A stretch of 64,000 bases of DNA, from NCBI RefSeq assembly GCF_003003255.1, contig NZ_PVTD01000008.1, positions 62,001-126,000 on the forward strand, written 5' to 3'. A program made the translations under genes and the position numbers. Position 1 is the stretch's first letter, and each line of letters opens with the position of its first letter. The DNA is from Aliiruegeria haliotis (lineage in GTDB: Bacteria; Pseudomonadota; Alphaproteobacteria; Rhodobacterales; Rhodobacteraceae). Positions 2,364-13,309 of this stretch are shown here, piece after piece. Under the pieces are notes generated by a model, which was not told the origin of the DNA, did no database searches, and saw only the letters and a program-made list of their open reading frames with translations.

Positions 2364-3643
2364 GGCGCTTCCGCCCGGAGTCCGGCAACCACAAATGCAG
2401 CAATGAAGAACAGCATCGACAGGAATCCCAGGACGGAGAACCACCTGTTCATGCCGACACCGAAGCTGCTTTGCAGGAACACCAGAAAGGTCACGTTGGT
2501 GGGTAGAACCCCGAGTGCGAGAATCATACCGCCTCTTGTCCAGCCGAAAACGGACAGGAACGTGGGCGCGAAGGCCAATGGCGCGATGTAGTAGTAGGGC
2601 CAGCTCAACGGGCTCAGAAGTCCGAGCGCAATCATGGAAACGGGCCAGATGGAGGTGTAGAGCGCCTGCTCTCCCATCCGGCGTGTGAACCAAACCGCAG
2701 CGGCCAACGTGGCAAGGGTGAGGACGCGTGTCGCGAGTGTCCAGACTGCCGTTTTCTCGACGACAAGCCAGTAGCCGCCGGACTCCGCTGCCGCGAGCGT
2801 TTGCACCGGCACCCGCGTCATTGCGCTGTCATCCACGAGATAGGCCAGGATATTGTCGAGCCCGATCCCGAATGGTGTCTTCATCGCGGAGGCCGACACC
2901 GCGTGAACCCCGGAGAGGAACTCCAGATGGAGCGGCCACCCGGCCAACGCGATGGAGCCGAGCCCAAGGGCAGCCCCCACGATCAGGAAGGACAGGACGG
3001 CCCGATGCAACCCGGCCGCCAGGAACAGCACGATGTAAAGCGCGGGGAACAACTTGATCGCGGCGGCGATTGCGAGCGCCGTTCCGGCGGCGACCTCCCG
3101 ACCAGCGCGGGCCCTCTCGATGGCAACAAGCAGCAGGAAAGCGACCAGGATCTGGGGTTGGTTTTGCTGAATTGCGATGTCGCCGACAGTCGACAGTGAC
3201 AGGATGGTCCCACCCGCGATCACGTATATCAGCGGATGCAGCGGTGTCCGCACCGCGCGCCAGGCCAGCAATACCACCGCCAGGAGCAGCATCGGGTTGA
3301 CGAGATTTGCCAGCGACCGGAATTGCGCAAAGCCGATAACCTCTGTCACCGGCGCCATCAGGTAGGCCCAGAGAGGCGGGTAGAGATACGGGAAGACCGT
3401 GCTCTGGTGGCCGGTTGCGGCGGCCATGTCCAACCACTCCGGCAGGGGTGGCTGCATGGTAAAGGCGTCCGGATAGCTGGAATATATCAGGTCGGGACGT
3501 TGGTCCGCTACGGCCTGCCCGGCCAGCCACAATGCGAGAAGGTCTTCGCTCGGGCGATAGAGATCCGGCAGGATTACGAAGCCCACCGCCAGAAGAACTG
3601 TCATCGCCAACGCGGCAAACGCGATGGTACGGATCGGCGTCAT
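2333..3643 (-). CDS. Second polytopic glycosyltransferase, GT87/DUF2029 type
   Basis: 436 residues, about ten membrane spans, same architecture as the protein at 170-1462: an L-W-L-A-G loop after TM1, VFPYLYPPLWAYLMAP near residue 95, QQNQPQILVAFLL and IKLFPALY further on, and a conserved SWPYYYIAPL near residue 350. The ATG at 3643 follows GGAGG by 7 bases; the upstream open frame to 3772 lacks any family character. The two GT87-like proteins share fold motifs but look well diverged, so this is an old duplication or two separate acquisitions rather than a recent tandem copy. The 3' end overlaps the convergent CPBP gene by 31 bp. Acceptor unknown. Confidence 0.75.
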   Translation of the reverse strand: MTPIRTIAFAALAMTVLLAVGFVILPDLYRPSEDLLALWLAGQAVADQRPDLIYSSYPDAFTMQPPLPEWLDMAAATGHQSTVFPYLYPPLWAYLMAPVTEVIGFAQFRSLANLVNPMLLLAVVLLAWRAVRTPLHPLIYVIAGGTILSLSTVGDIAIQQNQPQILVAFLLLVAIERARAGREVAAGTALAIAAAIKLFPALYIVLFLAAGLHRAVLSFLIVGAALGLGSIALAGWPLHLEFLSGVHAVSASAMKTPFGIGLDNILAYLVDDSAMTRVPVQTLAAAESGGYWLVVEKTAVWTLATRVLTLATLAAAVWFTRRMGEQALYTSIWPVSMIALGLLSPLSWPYYYIAPLAFAPTFLSVFGWTRGGMILALGVLPTNVTFLVFLQSSFGVGMNRWFSVLGFLSMLFFIAAFVVAGLRAEAPQKGRTTLPE

Positions 3644-3781
3644 TACAGTCCTCCGGCCGCCCCGGCTCTCACCGTCGGCTTGAGCCAGAGACGCTAGCAG
3701 AACAGGGATTCGCCAGATATCGGCAACCATCCACACGGGGGCTGCCGGGGTGGATTGTTGCTGGCACGACACGAACTGTCG

Positions 3782-4984
3782 TCACGTCACGCGATAGAGA
3801 TAGTCCCGTGTCAGCGGCACCGCATCCTGTCGCCGGGACAATTGCACCTGAAACACAACCTGGTTGTGATAGCGGAACGACATTTCGCTCGCGGTCAGGT
3901 AGTAGCGCCACATACGACAGAACCGCGCGTCATAGAGCGCAAGCGCTGCACCCTCGTTGGCCGCGAACCTTTCCCGCCAATGCCGAAGGGTCTCCGCGTA
4001 GTGCAGCCTCCAGACCTCGACATCAGTCGTCCAAAGCCTTTCCTTTTCGACGGCGGCCATCACTTCCGACAACGCCGGCAGGTAGCCCCCGGGAAAGATG
4101 TACTTGGATATCCACGGGCTGGTGGACCCCGGTGGCGTGTTCCGTCCGATCGTGTGTACGACCGCAATCCCGTCGACGGTCAGCCGGTCCCGGACATGGC
4201 CGAAATACTCCCGGTAGTGCGGCACACCCACGTGTTCGAACATGCCTACTGAAACAATGCGGTCGAACTCTCCCGTCACCTCCCGATAGTCCATCAGGCG
4301 GAACTCTGCCCGGTCGGCCAGCCCCGCCATCTCTGCCCGCTGCTGCGCCACCGCATGCTGTTCTCTGGACAGGGTCACACCCAGCACGTGCGCACCATGC
4401 TCGCCGGCCAGTGTCAGCGCCATGCCCCCCCAGCCGCAGCCGATGTCGAGTACGCGCATGCCCGGCTCCAACCTCAGCTTGCGGGCAATATGGGCCTTCT
4501 TCTGTGCCTGGGCCTGCTCCAGCGTGTCCTCTGGCGACCGGAAATAGGCACAGGAATACTGGCGATCCTCGTCGAGGAAGAGGTCGTAGAGCGCGCCCGA
4601 CAAGTCGTAGTGGTGGGCCACGTTCTGACGCGCACGTTGCAGAGGGTTGTATTGCTGCACCCGCCGCAGGAGGCGCCGCAGACCAAGGTTCAAGCGAATG
4701 GCCCAACCGGATTTTCCCGCACCGCGGTTCATCAACAGGAGCGCCAGGAACCCGGGAAGATCGTCTCCGTCGATGGTCAGGTCCTGATCCATGTAGGCCT
4801 CCCCCAGCGCGAGATCGGGGTTCAGGATCAGACGTCGCGGGAGTGTGGGGTCGTGGAGCCAGATCGTCACTTGCGGTCCGCTCCCGTTGCCGTAGGTGCG
4901 CTCGACCACACCCGCGCCGCGAACTGTCAGCCGCCCGTCATGAACGATCCGTTCCAACAACCGATCCAGCAATCCGCTCCACAT
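3782..4984 (-). CDS. cfa: Cyclopropane-fatty-acyl-phospholipid synthase
   Basis: 400 residues from the ATG at 4984. The class I SAM-binding motif DIGCGWGGMALTLA starts near residue 180, followed by the family's GVTLSREQ and FDRIVSVGMFEHVG. Typical upstream signatures are present: NVAHHYDLSGALYDLFLDE and SCAYF, and the downstream FPGGYLPAL with its conserved aromatic and catalytic-region residues. The enzyme adds a methylene group from S-adenosylmethionine across cis double bonds of membrane phospholipid acyl chains, usually in stationary phase or stress. The start is a choice: the frame continues open to 5107 but the extra residues are Arg-rich and unlike the family, which usually begins close to the M-W-S-G-L-L-D segment. 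The divergent DUF1992 gene starts 167 bp away. Confidence 0.9.
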   Translation of the reverse strand: MWSGLLDRLLERIVHDGRLTVRGAGVVERTYGNGSGPQVTIWLHDPTLPRRLILNPDLALGEAYMDQDLTIDGDDLPGFLALLLMNRGAGKSGWAIRLNLGLRRLLRRVQQYNPLQRARQNVAHHYDLSGALYDLFLDEDRQYSCAYFRSPEDTLEQAQAQKKAHIARKLRLEPGMRVLDIGCGWGGMALTLAGEHGAHVLGVTLSREQHAVAQQRAEMAGLADRAEFRLMDYREVTGEFDRIVSVGMFEHVGVPHYREYFGHVRDRLTVDGIAVVHTIGRNTPPGSTSPWISKYIFPGGYLPALSEVMAAVEKERLWTTDVEVWRLHYAETLRHWRERFAANEGAALALYDARFCRMWRYYLTASEMSFRYHNQVVFQVQLSRRQDAVPLTRDYLYRVT

Positions 4985-5151
4985 CCCGACCTTGCCTCGC
5001 GCCTGCCATGCGCCCACTGCCAACCTCCGACCAGCGAAAAGTCTGGCATCCCGGGCCCTCCTTGTCGAGGTTTTCGACCACGGGCGGCTCGAGTGCATAG
5101 CGGCCATTCCATTGTATTTCTGGAAGAAATGGATAGGTTCGCTGCACAGGA

Positions 5152-5472
5152 ATGAATGCCATAAACCACCCGTTGAACCTCACCATCGACCTGTATCTCC
5201 AGCGTATGGAAAAGCGCGGTGCCTTCCGGGAACTTCCCGGGGAGGGAGAACCGGTGGAGCTGTCCAAGGACACGCCCTCGGTAATCAACAGGATGATGGC
5301 GGAAGCCGATGTGAAACCGGCGGCAGTCGTGCTTTACCGCAAACAGACTGACCTTCGGGCCCGGCTCACTGCGTGCATGGATCCGGCAGAATGCAAGGTC
5401 ATCCAACGGGAACTTGCAGATCTGCAAACTCGCCTTGCCATCGAACTCGAAAGCCTGAATCGGTTCGGGTAG
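5152..5472 (+). CDS. DUF1992 (DnaJ-homologue subfamily C28 conserved domain) protein
   Basis: 106 residues. Residues 10-75 fit DUF1992: an early Y-L-Q-R-M-E-K-R-G-x-F segment, the characteristic L-P-G-E-G-E-P turn, then a helical region with KPAAVVLYRKQTDLRARL. The domain occurs in vertebrate DNAJC28 without clear biochemistry; no function is assigned in bacteria. Start ATG at 5152 gives MNAINHPLN. It is monocistronic, convergent with the oxidoreductase operon, and ends 108 bp before the stop of that operon, with a shared hairpin in between. Confidence 0.75.
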   Translation: MNAINHPLNLTIDLYLQRMEKRGAFRELPGEGEPVELSKDTPSVINRMMAEADVKPAAVVLYRKQTDLRARLTACMDPAECKVIQRELADLQTRLAIELESLNRFG

Positions 5473-5522
5473 CCCCTGCGCCGGCCGACCCCCGCCCCAT
5501 CCTCCTGCCACGAATGCACCGA

Positions 5523-5550
5523 GGGCGCCGGATTATCTGATCCGACGCCC
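5523..5550. terminator. Hairpin between convergent genes
   Basis: An 11-bp stem with one mismatch (GGGCGCCGGAT / ATCCGACGCCC) around a TATCTG loop, between the DUF1992 stop and the stop of the reverse-strand flavoprotein. It could act for both strands, although neither side has a clean T-run immediately after the stem. Confidence 0.5.
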
Positions 5551-5579
5551 TGCGGCAGTCTCTGCTTGATAGGCTTTTT

Positions 5580-8336
5580 TTAAAGACCGTGGGCTTCCAG
5601 GCTTCGCACTTCCTGTGCCTTGAACTGGTTGAAACGGGGCATGAACTTGTCCCACTCAACCGTATGTGCGTCGAACTCAGGCCCGTCGATACAGGCGTGC
5701 ATCCGAACGTTCTTTCCGTCGCGCACCACCGGCACCATGCAAGCGCCACACATGCCGGTTGCATCGACCATGATCGAGTTGAGGCTCACCACCGTCGGCA
5801 CGCCAAAGGGCTGCGTCAGGTCGCTCACCGCGCGCATCATCATCGGGGGACCGACGGAAATGACCTCGGCCAGCTTGCGCCCCTTGGACATATTGTTGTC
5901 CTTGAGCATCTCTTCCAACGGACCGGTCACGAAACCGGCCGTGCCGAAGCTGCCGTCATTGGTGCAGTAGATGATGTCGATCTTGTCGCCGTACTTCGCT
6001 TTCAGAAGCCCCATCCGCTCATCGTCGCCGGTCCAGAACAGGTGATCCGCGGAACGGAAGCCGATGACCATGGTCACGTGGTTGCCGATCTCCAGATGCG
6101 CCTTGGCGATAGGGTAGATCGCCGGCAATCCGACGCCGCCAGCGGCAAAGACGACGGTCTCGTCCTCGGCGTAGCGATGCACCGCGCTCGGCCGCCCGAG
6201 CGGACCGGCAATACCGGAGAAGGACTCGCCTTCCGACATGCGGTTCATCAGCTTGCTCGATGTGCCCAGCCCCTGGATCACCAGGTCGATGGTCCCGGCG
6301 TCCGCATCCCAGTCGGCCAGCGTCAACGGGATCAACTCGCCATCGTCGCTCGCCAACACCCGCACGAACTGCCCGGCACGAGCGGCCTTGGCCACCACGG
6401 GCGCGTTGATCGTCATCTCGACGATCTCCTCGGCCACCTCGGTATGCTTGAGGATAACCTGGCTTGCCTGCCCCATGGCCGTGTAGGCTTCGGCCTTCTT
6501 CACGCGCTCCCTGATCTCCTTGGCATCGAAGGGGATATCGCCAACGATCTGGCGCGCGGCCGCCTGTCCGTCGCCTGCCGCGAGGATCGCGGTTGAGCCA
6601 CCCCGGGCAGCATCGCCACCGGTGTAGACATCCTTGACGGAGGTCTCCTGGCCTTCCTCGACCTCGATCGTGCCCCACTTGGAGAGCTTCAGATCCGGCT
6701 CCGCCTCGGGGATGATCGGGTTCGACTTGTTGCCGAGCGCCATGATGACCAGGTCAGCCGGCATCTCGATCACCTCGCCCGTTGGCTGTGGACGCCTGCG
6801 ACCGGACGCATCCGGCTCGCCGAGTTCGTTCACATCCACGATTGCGTGAGTCACGAAATGTGTGTGGCTGTCGCCCACGAACTCCTTGGGTCCGCGCAGC
6901 TCGGAGAGGATGATCCCCTCTTCCAACGCGTGGTGAAGCTCTTCGACCCGGCAGGGCATCTCGGCCTCTGTCCGGCGGTAGACGATCTGCACCTTGCCAC
7001 CCAGTCGCTTGGCGGTGCGTGCGGCATCCATCGCGGTGTTGCCCCCGCCGATGACCAGGATGTGCTTGTCCTTCACCTCCGGCAACGGTGTCTCGTACTC
7101 GGGTGACCGCCCGCGCATGAGGTTGACGCGGGTCAGGAACTCGTTCGCGGACATAACACCATTCAGGTGCTCACCGGGAACGTTCATGAAGGTCGGCAGA
7201 CCTGCGCCCGAGCCGACGAAGATCTTCCAGAACCCCGCGTTCTTGAGGTCATCCAGCGTCGCCGACTTGCCGACGACGAAGTTCTTCACGAACTTGCCGC
7301 CAAGAAGGTCGATCTTCTGAACCACGTCGTCGATCAGCGAGTTCGGCAGCCGGAATTCCGGAATGCCATAGCGCAGCACGCCGCCCAGTTCATGGAACGC
7401 TTCGAACACGGTCACAGGATAGCCTTCAACCGACAGCAGATAGGCATTGATCAGCCCGGAAGGGCCGGACCCGACAACAGCGATGGGGGGTTTGTCGGCC
7501 TTCGACCAAGGGCTGATCGCGCCCTTGAACCGTTGCAGCCGGTCCGGATCGGCCAGTTTCTCGTGCTCCGGCAGATACCACTCCAGCTGACCGATCTCGA
7601 TCGGGCGCTTGGTATGTTTGCACACGCCCTGGCACTGGTGTTCCTGCGGACAGACGCGGCCGGTGACGTTGGGCAATGGATTGGAGCTTTCGATCAATTC
7701 CAGCGCCTGCCGGATCTTGCCGTTGCCAATCAGGTCCAGCATCTCGGGGATGTGGATCTTCACAGGGCAGCCGCCGGCCGCCTTCGCTTCACGCTCGCGC
7801 ACTTTCTCCATCAGCACGCCAAGTTCGCAGGGGCGATCCTCGCATTGCTTGTCGCGCATCACTTCGAGCCAGACGAACAGGTCCACCTCGCGCAGGGAAT
7901 ATCCCAGCGCGCGGTAGCCGAGGTAGCCGGTGTTCACCAGATCGAAATCCTGGCTGCGGTCCTCCGGCGGGCGCACGTAGGGCGGGATGAAGTTCTCCGC
8001 CGGCCAGCCCTTGGACAGCCCCTCGAACATCGGGTAGCGGCCCGAAAGGTGCTGGTCCAGTGCGCGAATGAACTTGCGCTTGTACTTCAACGGCAGGTCC
8101 CAGAGGAACCGCTGAAGCACCGTGCTCATGTCATCCTCCCGCAAGAGGAGGTTCCAGAGAACGCCGATGAAGCGTTCCCCGAGTTCAGGCTGCTGGAACT
8201 CCCAGGCCATTGCCTGGGTTCCATCTGCGACGAAGACATTCCTGAGCGAGCGGGGATCCGCCGCCAGATGCTTCTTCAGGACCTCGATCTGTTGCTGGAA
8301 CAGCTCGTCCTGAGTTGTGGTGGCCTCGACGTTCAT
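5580..8336 (-). CDS. Single-chain NfnB-NfnA-like flavoprotein (fused GltD-type and FNR-type modules)
   Basis: 918 residues in three parts. Residues 1-190 form a domain I do not recognise. About 200-620 is a GltD/NfnB-type module: Fe-S region with CPQEHQCQGVCKH near 226, FAD motif GSGPSGLINA near 284, and a second dinucleotide motif VIGGGNTAMDAA near 425. About 630-918 is an FNR-type NfnA module ending in DATGMCGAC (near 855) and HACIDGPEFDAH (near 880). The Asp before the CGAC pair matches the unusual Asp ligand known for the NfnA [2Fe-2S] cluster, so Nfn-type ferredoxin/NAD(P)H chemistry fits better than glutamate synthase; no GltB-like large subunit is nearby. The start overlaps the stop of the 2-oxoacid oxidoreductase gene (ATGA), implying translational coupling. 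Inferred role: passing electrons between that enzyme's ferredoxin and NAD(P). Fusion of NfnB and NfnA in one chain is unusual. Confidence 0.75.
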   Translation of the reverse strand: MNVEATTTQDELFQQQIEVLKKHLAADPRSLRNVFVADGTQAMAWEFQQPELGERFIGVLWNLLLREDDMSTVLQRFLWDLPLKYKRKFIRALDQHLSGRYPMFEGLSKGWPAENFIPPYVRPPEDRSQDFDLVNTGYLGYRALGYSLREVDLFVWLEVMRDKQCEDRPCELGVLMEKVREREAKAAGGCPVKIHIPEMLDLIGNGKIRQALELIESSNPLPNVTGRVCPQEHQCQGVCKHTKRPIEIGQLEWYLPEHEKLADPDRLQRFKGAISPWSKADKPPIAVVGSGPSGLINAYLLSVEGYPVTVFEAFHELGGVLRYGIPEFRLPNSLIDDVVQKIDLLGGKFVKNFVVGKSATLDDLKNAGFWKIFVGSGAGLPTFMNVPGEHLNGVMSANEFLTRVNLMRGRSPEYETPLPEVKDKHILVIGGGNTAMDAARTAKRLGGKVQIVYRRTEAEMPCRVEELHHALEEGIILSELRGPKEFVGDSHTHFVTHAIVDVNELGEPDASGRRRPQPTGEVIEMPADLVIMALGNKSNPIIPEAEPDLKLSKWGTIEVEEGQETSVKDVYTGGDAARGGSTAILAAGDGQAAARQIVGDIPFDAKEIRERVKKAEAYTAMGQASQVILKHTEVAEEIVEMTINAPVVAKAARAGQFVRVLASDDGELIPLTLADWDADAGTIDLVIQGLGTSSKLMNRMSEGESFSGIAGPLGRPSAVHRYAEDETVVFAAGGVGLPAIYPIAKAHLEIGNHVTMVIGFRSADHLFWTGDDERMGLLKAKYGDKIDIIYCTNDGSFGTAGFVTGPLEEMLKDNNMSKGRKLAEVISVGPPMMMRAVSDLTQPFGVPTVVSLNSIMVDATGMCGACMVPVVRDGKNVRMHACIDGPEFDAHTVEWDKFMPRFNQFKAQEVRSLEAHGL

Positions 8337-11300
8337 TTGATGATCTCCGAGTCGCAGTTCGCGGCGACCTTGGCCATGCGGGCTTGCAGCTGATCCGTCA
8401 CCTCGACCTTGTCGAGCGCGCCCGGCACCATGTGCGCCACCTGCTTTGCCTCGCCATCCACGACGATCTTCGTCAGCTCGAAGAGCTCCGGTATCTCCTG
8501 ATAGCAGGTCTTGCAATCGGAGCAGAGCGGCACGTCTTCGTCCCGGATGAAGGGAAGCCCTGTCGCGCTCTCCTCCACGGCCGGAGCCCCTGCCGGGGCG
8601 GGCGCGGCACTTGCCACGGGCGAGAGTGCCCCGCCAAGCCCGACCGCAGCCGGTGCGTTGGAGGCTGCGGCAAGCTCGCTCATGCCGGTGGCGATGCTGT
8701 CCATCGTCTCCTCGCGGGCGTTCACGGCCTCTTCATAGCGTTGTTGCAAGGCTGTGACTTCGGCGTGGTGTGCCGCATCAAGCTGCTCGACAGGCATGCC
8801 GGCCAGATGCTGCAACGTCCGCCATGCGCGACGGCGTTCCTCGACCAGGTGCACGACCGTGGTGCCGACCTCCAGCCGGATCAGCCGGCGGTCGTCGTCC
8901 GTGGCGTAAACGAAGGGCACCTTGCCCATCCGATCGGCCAGCGGCAGGTCGATATACTCTGTCACGGGCACGCCGACGGCGCCTTCGGCCATCGGACGGA
9001 ACTGCTTCTTGAAGCGGGTTTCGTCGAAGGCGAAGTTGGCGGGCGTCAGCGGCACGTCCATGAGCTTGAGCGTACCATCCTCGACATACTCGATCGTCGT
9101 GGTGGCCCAGTCCTTCTCCACGGCGGGGTTGCCATCGAGCGAGAACCGCTCCTCGATCGTGTCGCCCGCATTCGGGTCGTGCACGAAGACCGGGCTGATC
9201 CGGGCCTCCACGGCCAGCTTGGCACGCTGGCTCGCAGCGGCATCGGCGATCCCGTGCTCCGCCTGACATGGCGTGTAGACATCGAGCAGCGCGGGCGAAT
9301 CCGTGTGCTCCAGGAACTTGACCATGTTGCGCAGGAAGTGCCCGGGCACCGAGGTCGCGCTCTGCACCACGAGGACGTCGGGGTGGAAGGCCGCGATCAG
9401 GCCAAGCTCCTTGCGGTCTTCCTGTTTGCCGTGGGAGGCCGGGCCGAAGCGGCTGAGGTCGCTGTCCTGCCCGGAGAGCGACGCCGTGGAGGCTTGACCG
9501 CCGGTGTTGGAATAGACGCCCGAATTCAGTACCATCACCTTTACCGGCGTGTTCGACGCCAGCAGGCGGGACAGTGCCCCGAAGCCGATATCATAGGCCG
9601 CACCGTCACCGGAGATGTTGATCACCGTCGGCAGCAGCTTCCGCTCCTCGGTAGAGAAGTTCTGCCACTCAAAATTGCGGAAGAAGGCGTCGTCGGCGGT
9701 GTCATAGGCATCCGCCAGTTCCAGCTTCGCGGTGCGCAGCGCCTTGAAGTCGACCGTCGCCGTCGCCGTGATCCCCTCGAAGATCCCCTTGGAGAGCGCC
9801 GGGCCGTCCTGGAACAGGCTGTTCACCCAGGGATCGTTGTAGGGGTTGTAGGGGAAGGTCGAGGCATAGACAGAGCTACAGCCGGTGGCATTGGCGACCA
9901 CCATCGCGGCCGGGCCGTTTCCGGTCGGTCCGCCTTCCATGAGGAAAAGACGCTTCTCCAGCACCTTGACCGCTTCGGCAATCCGATCCTTGCGCGCCGC
10001 ATCGTCGACTTGCGGCAGCTTGGCTTCCAGATCGGCAACCATGCCCTCCAATTCGCGGACATGTGCCTTGCGGCGCCGGTCGTGGATGGCGTGGGTGGCC
10101 GAAACCACCTGCCGGATCGCGGTCACCTCGCCGCAACCGCGGCAGGCACCGTGTCCACCGGTAGTGGCATAGTAGGTGTCGCGGTCGAGCATCATCCGCT
10201 TGATGTCACCCTCGGGTTCGAAGGCGGATTCGATGTATTTCGAGGGCGTGTTCGGTGTCTTCGACAGGAACTCGAACTCGGCCTGAAGCTTCTTCAGAAG
10301 TGGCTCGTCCTGCTCGGCCTCGCTCAACGCGGCAGGGCCACAGACATCGATGCACTCAAGGCAGCCGGAACATTTCCACGGGTCGATGACCACGGAGAAG
10401 AGGCCACCGGACCCGGCACGCTCGGCTTCCATCGCATCGAAGAACGGACGCGTCCGGGAGACAGGCAGCAGCCCCGCCGCCTCCGCCATGCGGGCGAGGT
10501 TCTTGCGCACGACGGCACTTTCGACGTCGAGCGTCTCGACCGCCTCCGCCACCAAGGCACCAAACGGTTTGGTCTCCTTGCTTTCGCCATAGGCGGCGCG
10601 GACAGCCTCACCGACAGGCCGCACGTGATCGCGCAACACGTCCCGTTGGGCGGCCGGCATCTCGACCTCCTTGAGGGCGGTCAGCAGCAGGTCGTCGATA
10701 TCGAAGACCGTCGCCGGGATCGCGGCATCCGGGCAGACCATGGTGCATTCCAGGCAACCGGTGCAAAGATCGGCATCAAGCACTGGAACATCGCGCCGGA
10801 ACAGGCCTTTGTCCCGTGCGGCTGCGGTGCCGGACGGCATGAACATGCCGCTGCCGGGCAAAACAGGTGCCTCCCCGATAGTGCCTTCGCGGAAGGGCGC
10901 GGCAACCGTCTCCTCGTAGTAGCCGTGGTCGAACAGACCCGTCGGAGACGAGTCCTGCGCAATGCGGCACATGTTCGTGGAAATCTCCGGACCGAACTCG
11001 GCCACCGGATCCGTCGTCACCTCTGCGAACTCGGGTTGCGTGTAGTCCACCGTGACCGTTGCCTCGGCGCCGTCGCGGATCACGGCCATGTTGCCATCGA
11101 CAACCGCCTTGCCTTTGGAACCGAACTTCTTTGCGATCTGGGTGCGGATCTTCTCCAACACCGCATCCCGGTCGGCGCCGGCCGTGATGCGCTCCACATG
11201 GCTGCAAACCGCGCCGATGAAGGCGATGCCCATCATGCGGGTTTCCAGCTCGGGTCGCGGGGCGTGCTTCTTGGCAATCGCGAAACCGTCCAGGACAAAG

Positions 11301-13309
11301 AAGCGGATCTTCTTTCGGACGATGAAGTCCCGCATCGCGGCCGGAAGCTCCTTCCAGACCTCAAGCGGCGACAGGCTCGATTGCAGCACGAAGGTGCCAC
11401 CCTCGACCAATCCGCGCAGGGGGTTGGAATGGACGAAGACTTTGTGGTCGGGCGAGACCACGACCTCCACATCCTCCAGATCCGCGTTGGTGATCTTCAC
11501 CTCTTCGGGGCTGAGCGTGATGTAGTAGTTGGTTGGCGCGCCGGACTTCTCGGAGCCGTATTTCGGTGCGGCCTTCGAGTGAAGCTTCAGGGCGTTGGCC
11601 AGAATGTCCGTCAGCAGCTTGCCGGTGGCAATGGTGCCGTATCCACCAACCGAGTGGAAACGGATGCGCAGCCCGTCTTCGGGCAGAAGCCTCGGGTTGG
11701 GCTTTGTCTCCAGCGCCATCAATTCGGTTTCAGGATAGGCCGCGCGCAGCTTGTCCTGCAATTCGGCGAGTTGCGGGCTCGGCGTCTTGGAGAAGAACTG
11801 GCTGCCAAGGTAGACAAACGGCGCGCTGCCTTCGTCCATGTTGTCGAAGGCGGCAATCAGGTGCCGCGGCTGAAGATCGTGCGCACCGAGCCCGAAAATG
11901 GCCGTGGTCAGGCGCGGCAGACGCTTCAGCGCCGGGATACCGGGGTACCGGTCCTCCTCGACATTCTCGACCGCCTTGACCAGAGCCTGGTTCACCAGCC
12001 CGGTGAGCGCCGTGACGTCGGACCGCTCCAGAACCGTCACTGCTCGCTTTCCGGCCAGCGCCTCGACAAGTTCGGCCTCCGGGAATGGCTGAAGCATCTT
12101 GATCGAGACGACCCCGACCTTGCGGCCCTGACGGCGCAGGTAGGCCGCCACAGCTTCGGCATCGTCGGTCACTGAACCGAGGCCCACCAGAACGGTTTCG
12201 GCATCGTCGCACTGGTAGGTCATCACTGGCTTGTATTCGCGGCCCGTGAGTTCGGAATACTCTTCCATCGCCTCGCGGACGAACCGGGGAACGTCACGGA
12301 CGAAGTGGGTGCGGTGATCGACGGAGCCAGCCTGATAATCCGGCTGGTTCTGCACGCCGCCGGTCAGGCCCGGATTGTGCACATCCACCTGCGCAGGCAC
12401 ACGTTGACGGGTGCCCTTTTCATAGGCGTTGATCCACTGCCGGCGCCATTGTGCGTGCAGTTCTTCGGGCACTTTCGCGAGGGTCTGCTCGACCATCGCG
12501 CCATCGTTGTCCTGCTCGATCGCGTCTGCGTTGGCATCGAGGAAATCGATCAGCGCAACGTAGTCGTCCTGCATCATGTCCGAGCTGTGGCGCCCGAGGT
12601 AGCGCTTGAGCTGGAAGACACGGCCCTTGGCACCGAAGAGCATTTCCTGCGCCACGGTCGGGCATTTGATCCGGCCCGCCGGATCACCGAGGAACCGCTG
12701 CAGCAGTTCGTCCTCCGGCATCATCACCTCGCTCATCATGTGGGAGGTGACAAATCCGTCCATTGAGTTGGCAACCGGGATCATCGACATCGCGCTGACC
12801 TTGTAGGAGATCGCGGCGAGATCCGCGGCTTCCTGCGGGTTCGAGCCAAAGAGGATCGTGTAGCCCGACGGCAGCAGCGCATAGACATCGTCATGTCCTG
12901 CCATCACGTTGAGCGAATGGCGGGAGACGGAGCGCGCGGCCACCTGCATGACGAACCCGCCAACCTTCTTGCCGACGGTCACGTAGTGGGATTCGATGCC
13001 GTAAAGGATGCCCTGGCTCGACGACGCGTTGGAGATATACTGTCCGCCGGTCAGAGCCGCGCCCAGGGCGCCGGACTGAGCCGAGTGCTCTCCTTCAGGT
13101 TCGAAGAAGAACGGGTGTCGCCCCCAGAGGTTCACACCACCGCCGGCGCGGAAGGCCTCGTAAATCTCCGCGATCTCCGTGGAAGGCGTGATTGGATAGC
13201 CGATCACCCCTCCGCACACCTGGCCCATCACTTGGGCAATCGCCCCATTTCCGTGGATGACTGTGGCTAGCCCCGGAAACTCCGGAGGCGTCGGAAGCGT
13301 ATCTTTCAT
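8333..13309 (-). CDS. 2-oxoacid (pyruvate?):ferredoxin oxidoreductase, NifJ-like, with C-terminal ferredoxin module
   Basis: 1658 residues, longer than classical NifJ (about 1170-1200). Order: thiamine-pyrophosphate pyrimidine-side domain with GYPITPSTEIAE near residue 38; transketolase C-like domain around 370-480; gamma domain around 540-760; two ferredoxin cluster motifs, CTGCLECTMVCP near 845 and CSGCLECIDVC near 977; TPP domain with ACRGCGEVTAIRQ near 1060 and the GDGAAYDIG...N motif near 1230; an Ala/Pro-rich linker near 1545-1580; and a terminal CSDCKTC...NCDSEII module from about 1592 that resembles a single-cluster ferredoxin. The substrate is not decided by sequence: pyruvate is the default, but the gene follows sucA-sucB-lpd, so 2-oxoglutarate or another 2-oxoacid is possible. 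Its stop overlaps the start of the Nfn-like gene. A 421-bp spacer separates it from lpd, which has its own terminator, so it probably has its own promoter. Confidence 0.85.
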   Translation of the reverse strand: MKDTLPTPPEFPGLATVIHGNGAIAQVMGQVCGGVIGYPITPSTEIAEIYEAFRAGGGVNLWGRHPFFFEPEGEHSAQSGALGAALTGGQYISNASSSQGILYGIESHYVTVGKKVGGFVMQVAARSVSRHSLNVMAGHDDVYALLPSGYTILFGSNPQEAADLAAISYKVSAMSMIPVANSMDGFVTSHMMSEVMMPEDELLQRFLGDPAGRIKCPTVAQEMLFGAKGRVFQLKRYLGRHSSDMMQDDYVALIDFLDANADAIEQDNDGAMVEQTLAKVPEELHAQWRRQWINAYEKGTRQRVPAQVDVHNPGLTGGVQNQPDYQAGSVDHRTHFVRDVPRFVREAMEEYSELTGREYKPVMTYQCDDAETVLVGLGSVTDDAEAVAAYLRRQGRKVGVVSIKMLQPFPEAELVEALAGKRAVTVLERSDVTALTGLVNQALVKAVENVEEDRYPGIPALKRLPRLTTAIFGLGAHDLQPRHLIAAFDNMDEGSAPFVYLGSQFFSKTPSPQLAELQDKLRAAYPETELMALETKPNPRLLPEDGLRIRFHSVGGYGTIATGKLLTDILANALKLHSKAAPKYGSEKSGAPTNYYITLSPEEVKITNADLEDVEVVVSPDHKVFVHSNPLRGLVEGGTFVLQSSLSPLEVWKELPAAMRDFIVRKKIRFFVLDGFAIAKKHAPRPELETRMMGIAFIGAVCSHVERITAGADRDAVLEKIRTQIAKKFGSKGKAVVDGNMAVIRDGAEATVTVDYTQPEFAEVTTDPVAEFGPEISTNMCRIAQDSSPTGLFDHGYYEETVAAPFREGTIGEAPVLPGSGMFMPSGTAAARDKGLFRRDVPVLDADLCTGCLECTMVCPDAAIPATVFDIDDLLLTALKEVEMPAAQRDVLRDHVRPVGEAVRAAYGESKETKPFGALVAEAVETLDVESAVVRKNLARMAEAAGLLPVSRTRPFFDAMEAERAGSGGLFSVVIDPWKCSGCLECIDVCGPAALSEAEQDEPLLKKLQAEFEFLSKTPNTPSKYIESAFEPEGDIKRMMLDRDTYYATTGGHGACRGCGEVTAIRQVVSATHAIHDRRRKAHVRELEGMVADLEAKLPQVDDAARKDRIAEAVKVLEKRLFLMEGGPTGNGPAAMVVANATGCSSVYASTFPYNPYNDPWVNSLFQDGPALSKGIFEGITATATVDFKALRTAKLELADAYDTADDAFFRNFEWQNFSTEERKLLPTVINISGDGAAYDIGFGALSRLLASNTPVKVMVLNSGVYSNTGGQASTASLSGQDSDLSRFGPASHGKQEDRKELGLIAAFHPDVLVVQSATSVPGHFLRNMVKFLEHTDSPALLDVYTPCQAEHGIADAAASQRAKLAVEARISPVFVHDPNAGDTIEERFSLDGNPAVEKDWATTTIEYVEDGTLKLMDVPLTPANFAFDETRFKKQFRPMAEGAVGVPVTEYIDLPLADRMGKVPFVYATDDDRRLIRLEVGTTVVHLVEERRRAWRTLQHLAGMPVEQLDAAHHAEVTALQQRYEEAVNAREETMDSIATGMSELAAASNAPAAVGLGGALSPVASAAPAPAGAPAVEESATGLPFIRDEDVPLCSDCKTCYQEIPELFELTKIVVDGEAKQVAHMVPGALDKVEVTDQLQARMAKVAANCDSEIIK

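Follow-up and report, generated by a model that had tools for sequence, protein, structure and literature searches.

A 64,000-nucleotide stretch of Aliiruegeria haliotis DNA (hereafter the window; contig NZ_PVTD01000008.1, positions 62,001 to 126,000) carries two overlapping genes, which we call A and B, encoding a giant protein related to pyruvate:ferredoxin oxidoreductases (PFORs) and a fused flavoprotein related to the Nfn transhydrogenases. Our sequence analyses suggest, at a probability of roughly 0.6, that the two proteins form a single soluble 2-oxoacid (probably pyruvate):NAD(P) oxidoreductase system, in which electrons would leave A through a C-terminal ferredoxin tail and which would likely operate by confurcation. 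The two genes and their junction are arranged as follows.

8333..13309, minus strand: gene A, predicted giant 2-oxoacid (probably pyruvate):ferredoxin oxidoreductase, ATG start, 1658 residues
5580..8336, minus strand: gene B, fused NfnB-NfnA-like flavoprotein ("pattern C" Nfn, NF009415), 918 residues, ATG at 8336
8333..8336, minus strand: ATGA overlap formed by the stop of A and the start of B

These coordinates and the profile matches given below confirm the initial annotation, which had described a 1658-residue NifJ-like gene overlapping a 918-residue fused Nfn-like gene through ATGA. The reading frame of A has zero internal stops, and a longer open reading frame (ORF) of 978 residues over gene B begins at an upstream TTG that lies within gene A. 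The A. haliotis genome harbors one full copy of each gene.

For a set of named relatives, one genome per species was scanned and at least 80 named loci were retained by similarity to A; 65 of 80 were testable, with at least 1 kb of sequence beyond A, and the 15 loci ending within 1 kb were left out. Among the matches listed, a translated search located B directly downstream of A and on the same strand in 59/65 testable loci, and open frames located it there in 58/65, the B frame of L113 being broken. Two of the 15 excluded short loci (L065 and L079) show the beginning of B, and six testable loci among the matches listed have no B next to A (L069, L078, L105, L109, L123 and L131). Named members of both Pseudomonadota and Actinomycetota have the adjacent pair, their A proteins being 53-83% identical to that of the window, which indicates that the arrangement is not due to chance. 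Hosts include Rhodopseudomonas, Rhodovulum, Rhodopila, Accumulibacter, Rhodoferax, Vibrio, Photobacterium and Magnetococcales as well as Cellulomonas, Actinotalea, Mobiluncus and Propionibacteriaceae.

The same association was evident in a phylum sample of 398 evenly drawn genomes, in which A-type proteins (E ≤1e-100) were found in 11 genomes and B (E ≤1e-150) in 9, all 9 of which are among the 11; the remaining two (G651 and G734) carry the Rnf-linked giants described below. In a class sample, only the window genome (1/385) passed 1e-100 for A. Seven of eight same-genus relatives encode A, and B adjoins it in 7/7 of these, in surroundings that vary; a second family has the adjacent pair in 8 genomes. 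Among Propionibacteriaceae, A was present in 13/57 genomes and B in both of two neighborhoods examined. Distances in the A and B trees correlate with r=0.885 over 50 pairs, a value that 0/2000 permutations reached. Thus, the proposal that the two genes belong together holds: homologs of A and B lie mostly side by side and are not usually found apart, and B never occurs without A in the 398-genome sample.

Gene A shows the domain order of a single-chain PFOR, with Pfam matches to POR_N, PFOR_II, POR, Fer4 and TPP_enzyme_C and an additional match to Fer4_15 at the tail. Its score against the NifJ model TIGR02176 (2e-117, 393.5 bits) falls below the curated equivalog cut-off of 911 bits, and we therefore refer to it as PFOR-like and not as a NifJ equivalog. 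A model of the C-terminal half (predicted local distance difference test [pLDDT] 78.7) has a single-chain PFOR as its top structural match, although the superposition is loose (template modeling [TM] score 0.42, root mean square deviation [rmsd] ~9 Å). All features of A listed here are on the minus strand.

12692..13207, minus strand: A residues 35-206, PFOR domain I (POR_N), holding T41, E74 and R126; kept in 66/66 aligned A
12410..12628, minus strand: A residues 228-300, insertion of the Nfn-linked type, from alignment
11972..12202, minus strand: A residues 370-446, PFOR core domain II, from Pfam
11063..11647, minus strand: A residues 555-749, POR (gamma) domain, from Pfam
10340..10765, minus strand: A residues 849-990, two CxxCxxCxxxC [4Fe-4S] motifs; kept in 66/66
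9881..10132, minus strand: A residues 1060-1143, helical insertion between C1059 and C1144, from alignment and model
9278..9628, minus strand: A residues 1228-1344, thiamine diphosphate (TPP)-binding domain with N1268, from Pfam and alignment
8336..8587, minus strand: A residues 1575-1658, C-terminal single-cluster ferredoxin tail, from the Fer4_15 match

T41, E74, R126 and N1268, which we take to align with the TPP/pyruvate residues of known PFORs, are conserved in 66/66 aligned relatives along with 12 core cluster cysteines. The latter comprise the widely spaced (~121 residues) motifs C849/852/855/859 and C980/983/986/990 and the presumed proximal-cluster ligands C1056/1059/1144/1348, also conserved in 66/66; together these residues presumably bind TPP, the substrate and three [4Fe-4S] clusters. 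Pyruvate is probably the substrate of A, favored over 2-oxoglutarate by family likeness only. The insertion at residues 228-300 is missing from the 4 Rnf-linked giants aligned and is kept in four loci that lack the tail (L069, L078, L109 and L123). The tail itself, joined by a low-confidence linker (pLDDT <50), carries C1596, C1599, C1602 and C1652, which are conserved in every tail-bearing aligned A (60/66). The other 6/66 comprise the four loci just named, which stop short of the tail, plus L064 and L065, where truncation or a broken frame occurs close to the end of a contig. The built-in Fe-S domains that the initial annotation had considered suited to pass electrons on are, then, present.

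Gene B matches the NCBIfam model NF009415 (PRK12779) over residues 7-917 with 1702 bits, above the cut-off of 1519, and has Pfam matches to Pyr_redox_2, Fer4_20 and DHODB_Fe-S_bind. It also matches both Nfn subunits of solved structures, the NfnB-like half coming first and the NfnA-like half second.

7857..8336, minus strand: B residues 1-160, N-terminal helical extension, from alignment and model
7767..7853, minus strand: B residues 162-190, distal-cluster motif RDx2Cx4C(insert)CPV, from alignment
7581..7652, minus strand: B residues 229-252, proximal-cluster motif GRVCPQExQCx3C...E, which retains the Glu ligand position
6573..7484, minus strand: B residues 285-588, flavin adenine dinucleotide (FAD)/NADP(H) domain (NfnB/GltD-like), from Pfam and structure matches
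5691..6455, minus strand: B residues 628-882, NfnA-like FAD/NAD domain with the [2Fe-2S] motif DATGMCGAC...C at its end

The proximal [4Fe-4S] ligands are kept in 22/22 aligned rows and in 59/60 sequences by pattern, with the Arg that follows the Glu being Trp in this family. The [2Fe-2S] ligands, including the Asp, are kept in 22/22 aligned rows and in 55/60 by pattern, a count that includes partial ORFs; the Gly of DGTG is replaced by Ala. The N-terminal extension, which is absent from four aligned NfnB-like proteins, is a candidate docking domain. At the distal cluster, the canonical Nfn motif is RCx2Cx4Cx3CPV (PMC6405883). The first Cys of this motif is Asp (Asp162) in 59/59 readable B sequences, with one more (L065) partial, and there is an insertion ahead of the last Cys. 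Docking studies of Nfn place ferredoxin close to the distal cluster (PMC6405883), and the Cys-to-Asp change of B therefore sits where an ordinary Nfn meets ferredoxin; we infer from this position that it may reflect a dedicated donor. A non-cysteine ligand at the proximal cluster is reported to help hold the two branches coupled (PMC9503767).

In the mechanism that we propose, A would cleave the oxoacid with coenzyme A (CoA) on TPP, and electrons would pass singly through its three [4Fe-4S] clusters to the one-cluster ferredoxin tail. The tail, in place of free ferredoxin, would then donate electrons to the distal cluster of B and onward to the central FAD. Because B retains most of the cofactor motifs of the bifurcating transhydrogenase, confurcation would be the likeliest overall reaction: electrons from the oxoacid and from NADH would jointly reduce two NADP+, following the Nfn reaction of ferredoxin + NADH to NADPH (PMC6405883).

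The pattern of losses bears on the role of the tail. The four loci L069, L078, L109 and L123 have neither a tail nor a nearby B, and their genomes lack a full-length B. They fall into two clades of the tree, one of Pleomorphomonas and a Rhodospirillum metagenome-assembled genome (MAG) and one of Mobiluncus mulieris, the latter beside M. curtisii, which keeps both. This joint absence in two clades suggests that tail and B go together. A perfect link between the two is weakened by the loci L168 and L105 and by the count of two clades, and some of the genomes compared are drafts. In L168 (G799; A at 4397-9040, B at 9037-11733), the last tail residues, the ATGA overlap and an intact B are retained, making this locus a candidate for a natural tail deletion. 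At L105, the next genes include an opposite-strand frame whose start resembles, by eye, a [2Fe-2S] NADH-dehydrogenase-type subunit.

Several observations weigh against a confurcating A-B system. The TIGR02176 score lies far under the PFOR equivalog cut-off, which speaks against a firm assignment of the substrate of A. Both the distal cluster motif of B and the NfnA flavin-strand motif ERxPxT, which reads ELIPLT in B, deviate from bifurcating Nfn. The model of B is moderate (pLDDT 73); compared with Nfn, its NfnA half has a TM score of 0.9 and its NfnB half 0.55 (by target length), the latter superposing poorly (rmsd 12-13 Å). With respect to spread, a single genus accounts for 8/9 B genomes in the phylum sample, the window genome being the ninth, and as the 80 loci were chosen by similarity to A, the 59/65 count describes close relatives. 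Moreover, linked genes share a history whatever their function, so the tree correlation is weak support for contact. Finally, the four loci lacking both tail and B represent two clades and not four events, L105 keeps its tail, yet the nearest 7.7 kb contain no B and its genome lacks a full-length copy, and L168 keeps B though its A tail has lost the CxxCxxC part.

In the window, A is immediately preceded by lpd, sucB and sucA, with sucCD slightly further upstream. Window positions 26864-52360 encode an HpcH-type lyase, a mesaconyl-CoA hydratase-like protein, a succinate dehydrogenase flavoprotein, a B12 CoA-mutase and a zinc-type dehydrogenase that is crotonyl-CoA reductase-like by context, consistent with an ethylmalonyl-CoA/tricarboxylic acid (TCA) cycle gene set. 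The TCA/ethylmalonyl-CoA neighborhood noted in the initial annotation is therefore real in the window, but it is common to 0/7 same-genus relatives with the pair; being unshared by 7/7, it was ruled out as a general clue to function. Two loci of the genome score above the cut-off for pyruvate dehydrogenase E1-alpha, and adjoining the pair is a full set of 2-oxoglutarate dehydrogenase genes. With pyruvate and 2-oxoglutarate dehydrogenases of its own, the host would have in A and B an additional route, which it probably uses as an oxygen-limited side route beside pyruvate dehydrogenase. An isolate of Tropicimonas fermented glucose when oxygen was absent (PMC10939381), a finding that renders the earlier label of an aerobe doubtful. 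In 8 sequences of the same genus, two simple patterns detected no FNR-like box over the 330 bases preceding A, a scan that took its starts from ORF calls, with that of L037 guessed.

Other readings of the pair were weighed against these data. A and B might be coupled more simply, B acting as a plain ferredoxin:NADP reductase, or as an NAD reducer at its NfnA half, with no confurcation. On this account the altered distal cluster would mark a loss of tight coupling, and the change in 59/59 sequences and the ELIPLT motif agree with it; the proximal Glu ligand, the [2Fe-2S] Asp motif and both flavin/nucleotide halves, however, are kept in 22/22 aligned rows, and a conserved NfnA half would be needless for an enzyme serving NADP alone. 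We regard such simple wiring as rather unlikely. It is also unlikely that the genes are merely cotranscribed, each protein using a shared pool of free ferredoxin without contacting the other. The loci L105 (A with its tail, no B) and L168 (B without an intact tail) speak for this explanation, as does an Enterococcus faecalis plasmid record in which ordinary nfnAB-like genes lie beside an ordinary nifJ, but the pairing spans two phyla, B is never without A in the phylum sample and the ferredoxin-side cluster is changed in every readable B.

The system could alternatively run in reverse, NADPH bifurcation in B driving A to convert acetyl-CoA + CO2 to pyruvate during growth on acetate or similar compounds. 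Several hosts are, by name, purple bacteria or Accumulibacter-type, and the ethylmalonyl-CoA gene set lies near the pair in the window. Yet that neighborhood is missing from all seven same-genus relatives with the pair, and many hosts are actinobacteria, a number of which ferment, leaving reverse operation improbable. The position of lpd, sucB and sucA directly upstream of A, with sucCD beyond, would suit a role of A in bypassing the adjacent 2-oxoglutarate dehydrogenase anaerobically, with 2-oxoglutarate as its substrate. However, this neighborhood is likewise not kept in 7/7 relatives, and A is nearest to single-chain pyruvate enzymes by sequence and fold; there is little likelihood of such a by-pass.

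A second type of giant PFOR was found with a different partner. Five more distant giants, of ~35-38% identity (L024 from Gemmatirosa, L025 from Persicobacter, L050, L051, and L131 from Gemmatimonadota), form a separate clade with full support; L050 and L051 come from genomes of the window's phylum. All five (5/5) lie in complete rnf operons, with RnfC, D, G, E and A homologs downstream. An RnfB homolog is found immediately upstream of the giant in four loci, and in L025 it sits at the cluster's far end. The FeS-domain genes beside these giants came from a family search, and Pfam named two of them. The idea that A replaces RnfB in rnf operons was ruled out, as a translated search detected RnfB-like genes in 5/5 loci. 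Upstream of the giant PFOR of the Gemmatirosa plasmid (L024) is a two-gene 2-oxoacid:acceptor oxidoreductase pair (3149-6024). At the window, none of the 10 neighboring genes scanned belongs to an rnf-like family, the rest of the A. haliotis genome not having been searched for Rnf. The rnf operons of the sister branch indicate that the giant PFOR core sits with a dedicated acceptor in both branches, one that is predicted to be soluble in the Nfn-linked branch and membrane-bound in the Rnf-linked branch. A bolder and decidedly tentative extension is that A and B constitute an obligate, hard-wired confurcating pyruvate oxidoreductase in which the tethered tail replaces diffusible ferredoxin, that the deepest branch of Nfn arose as its partner and not as a free transhydrogenase, and that the same giant core has elsewhere been wired to the ion-pumping Rnf.

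If the proposed A-B system is correct, facultative anaerobes, among them purple bacteria, vibrios, actinobacteria and bacteria of the Accumulibacter type, would have a soluble route from 2-oxoacid to NAD(P)H independent of free ferredoxin, and the pattern C Nfn would gain a partner and a testable role. The natural mutants described above, in which the tail cluster, B or both were lost, provide a means to probe electron channeling.

Among known systems, NifJ-type PFORs (6cin, 1b0p) share with A the same domain order and the TPP and cluster residues; A is ~430-490 residues longer, with insertions and the ferredoxin tail, and scores below the TIGR02176 cut-off. The NfnAB/NfnSL enzymes of Clostridium, Thermotoga and Pyrococcus share with B most cofactor motifs and the sequence and fold of both halves, but they are two-chain enzymes with a canonical distal cluster, and the N-terminal extension is absent from the aligned two-chain relatives. 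In the E. faecalis plasmid record (L153, 4974-10796), the nfnAB-like pair is directly upstream of the ordinary nifJ, beside selenium-metabolism genes. The Euglena pyruvate:NADP+ oxidoreductase also passes PFOR electrons to NADP via a built-in flavoprotein, in one chain with a cytochrome P450 reductase-like part; that C-terminal part has no Pfam match here, which distinguishes A and B from the Euglena type. The NAD-linked phenylglyoxylate dehydrogenase and the 2-oxoglutarate:NADP+ oxidoreductase of Azoarcus are 2-oxoacid enzymes with a flavoprotein that reduces NAD(P), but they are multi-subunit, act on other substrates and are not known to have an Nfn-type second half; NCBIfam phenylglyoxylate dehydrogenase models match A under their cut-offs. 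In R. palustris, a genetic role is known for AadN, a fused Nfn of pattern B. The genome of L078 (L142, G769) contains another fused Nfn-like gene, in which the NfnA half precedes the NfnB half, as in pattern B, and which is 44-48% identical to B.

For propionibacteria, a complex of PFOR with NfnB-like and dihydroorotate dehydrogenase-like proteins was postulated in 2020 (PMC7650540). It resembles the A-B pair in joining a PFOR to an Nfn-like protein, its flanking genes are cotranscribed with the PFOR, and PFOR knockout cripples growth; it differs in that separate genes encode the two partners and in the proposal of quinol as a substrate. A Propionibacterium MAG (G775; L171, L172) encodes PFORs of ordinary size in addition to the A-B pair: one adjoins a GltD-like gene, and after another comes a 331-residue frame that looks, by eye, like a dihydroorotate dehydrogenase. 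The initial annotation knew of no characterized example of the A-B arrangement. Indeed, none was found, but B belongs to a named family (NF009415, pattern C; PMC6405883), and a PFOR + Nfn-like complex had, as noted, already been proposed. In the open-license literature searched, subscription papers being outside the scope, we did not find the near-constant pairing of A with B, the A tail, the Asp change in B or the Rnf-linked giants described.

The pattern C fused Nfn, of Mobiluncus curtisii type, was described from sequence in 2019, with its properties uncharacterized (PMC6405883), and the M. curtisii homolog had in 2018 been placed as the earliest, basal Nfn branch (PMC6085437); M. curtisii is also the source of our locus L088. 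The available text of the 2019 report names no PFOR partner for pattern C, unlike B here, although, according to the legend of its Figure 2, PFOR is one of the genes that neighbor nfn in at least one microbe. B conforms to pattern C: it has the NfnB half first and the NfnA half at the C terminus, carries ~200 extra residues and occurs in Actinobacteria and Proteobacteria.

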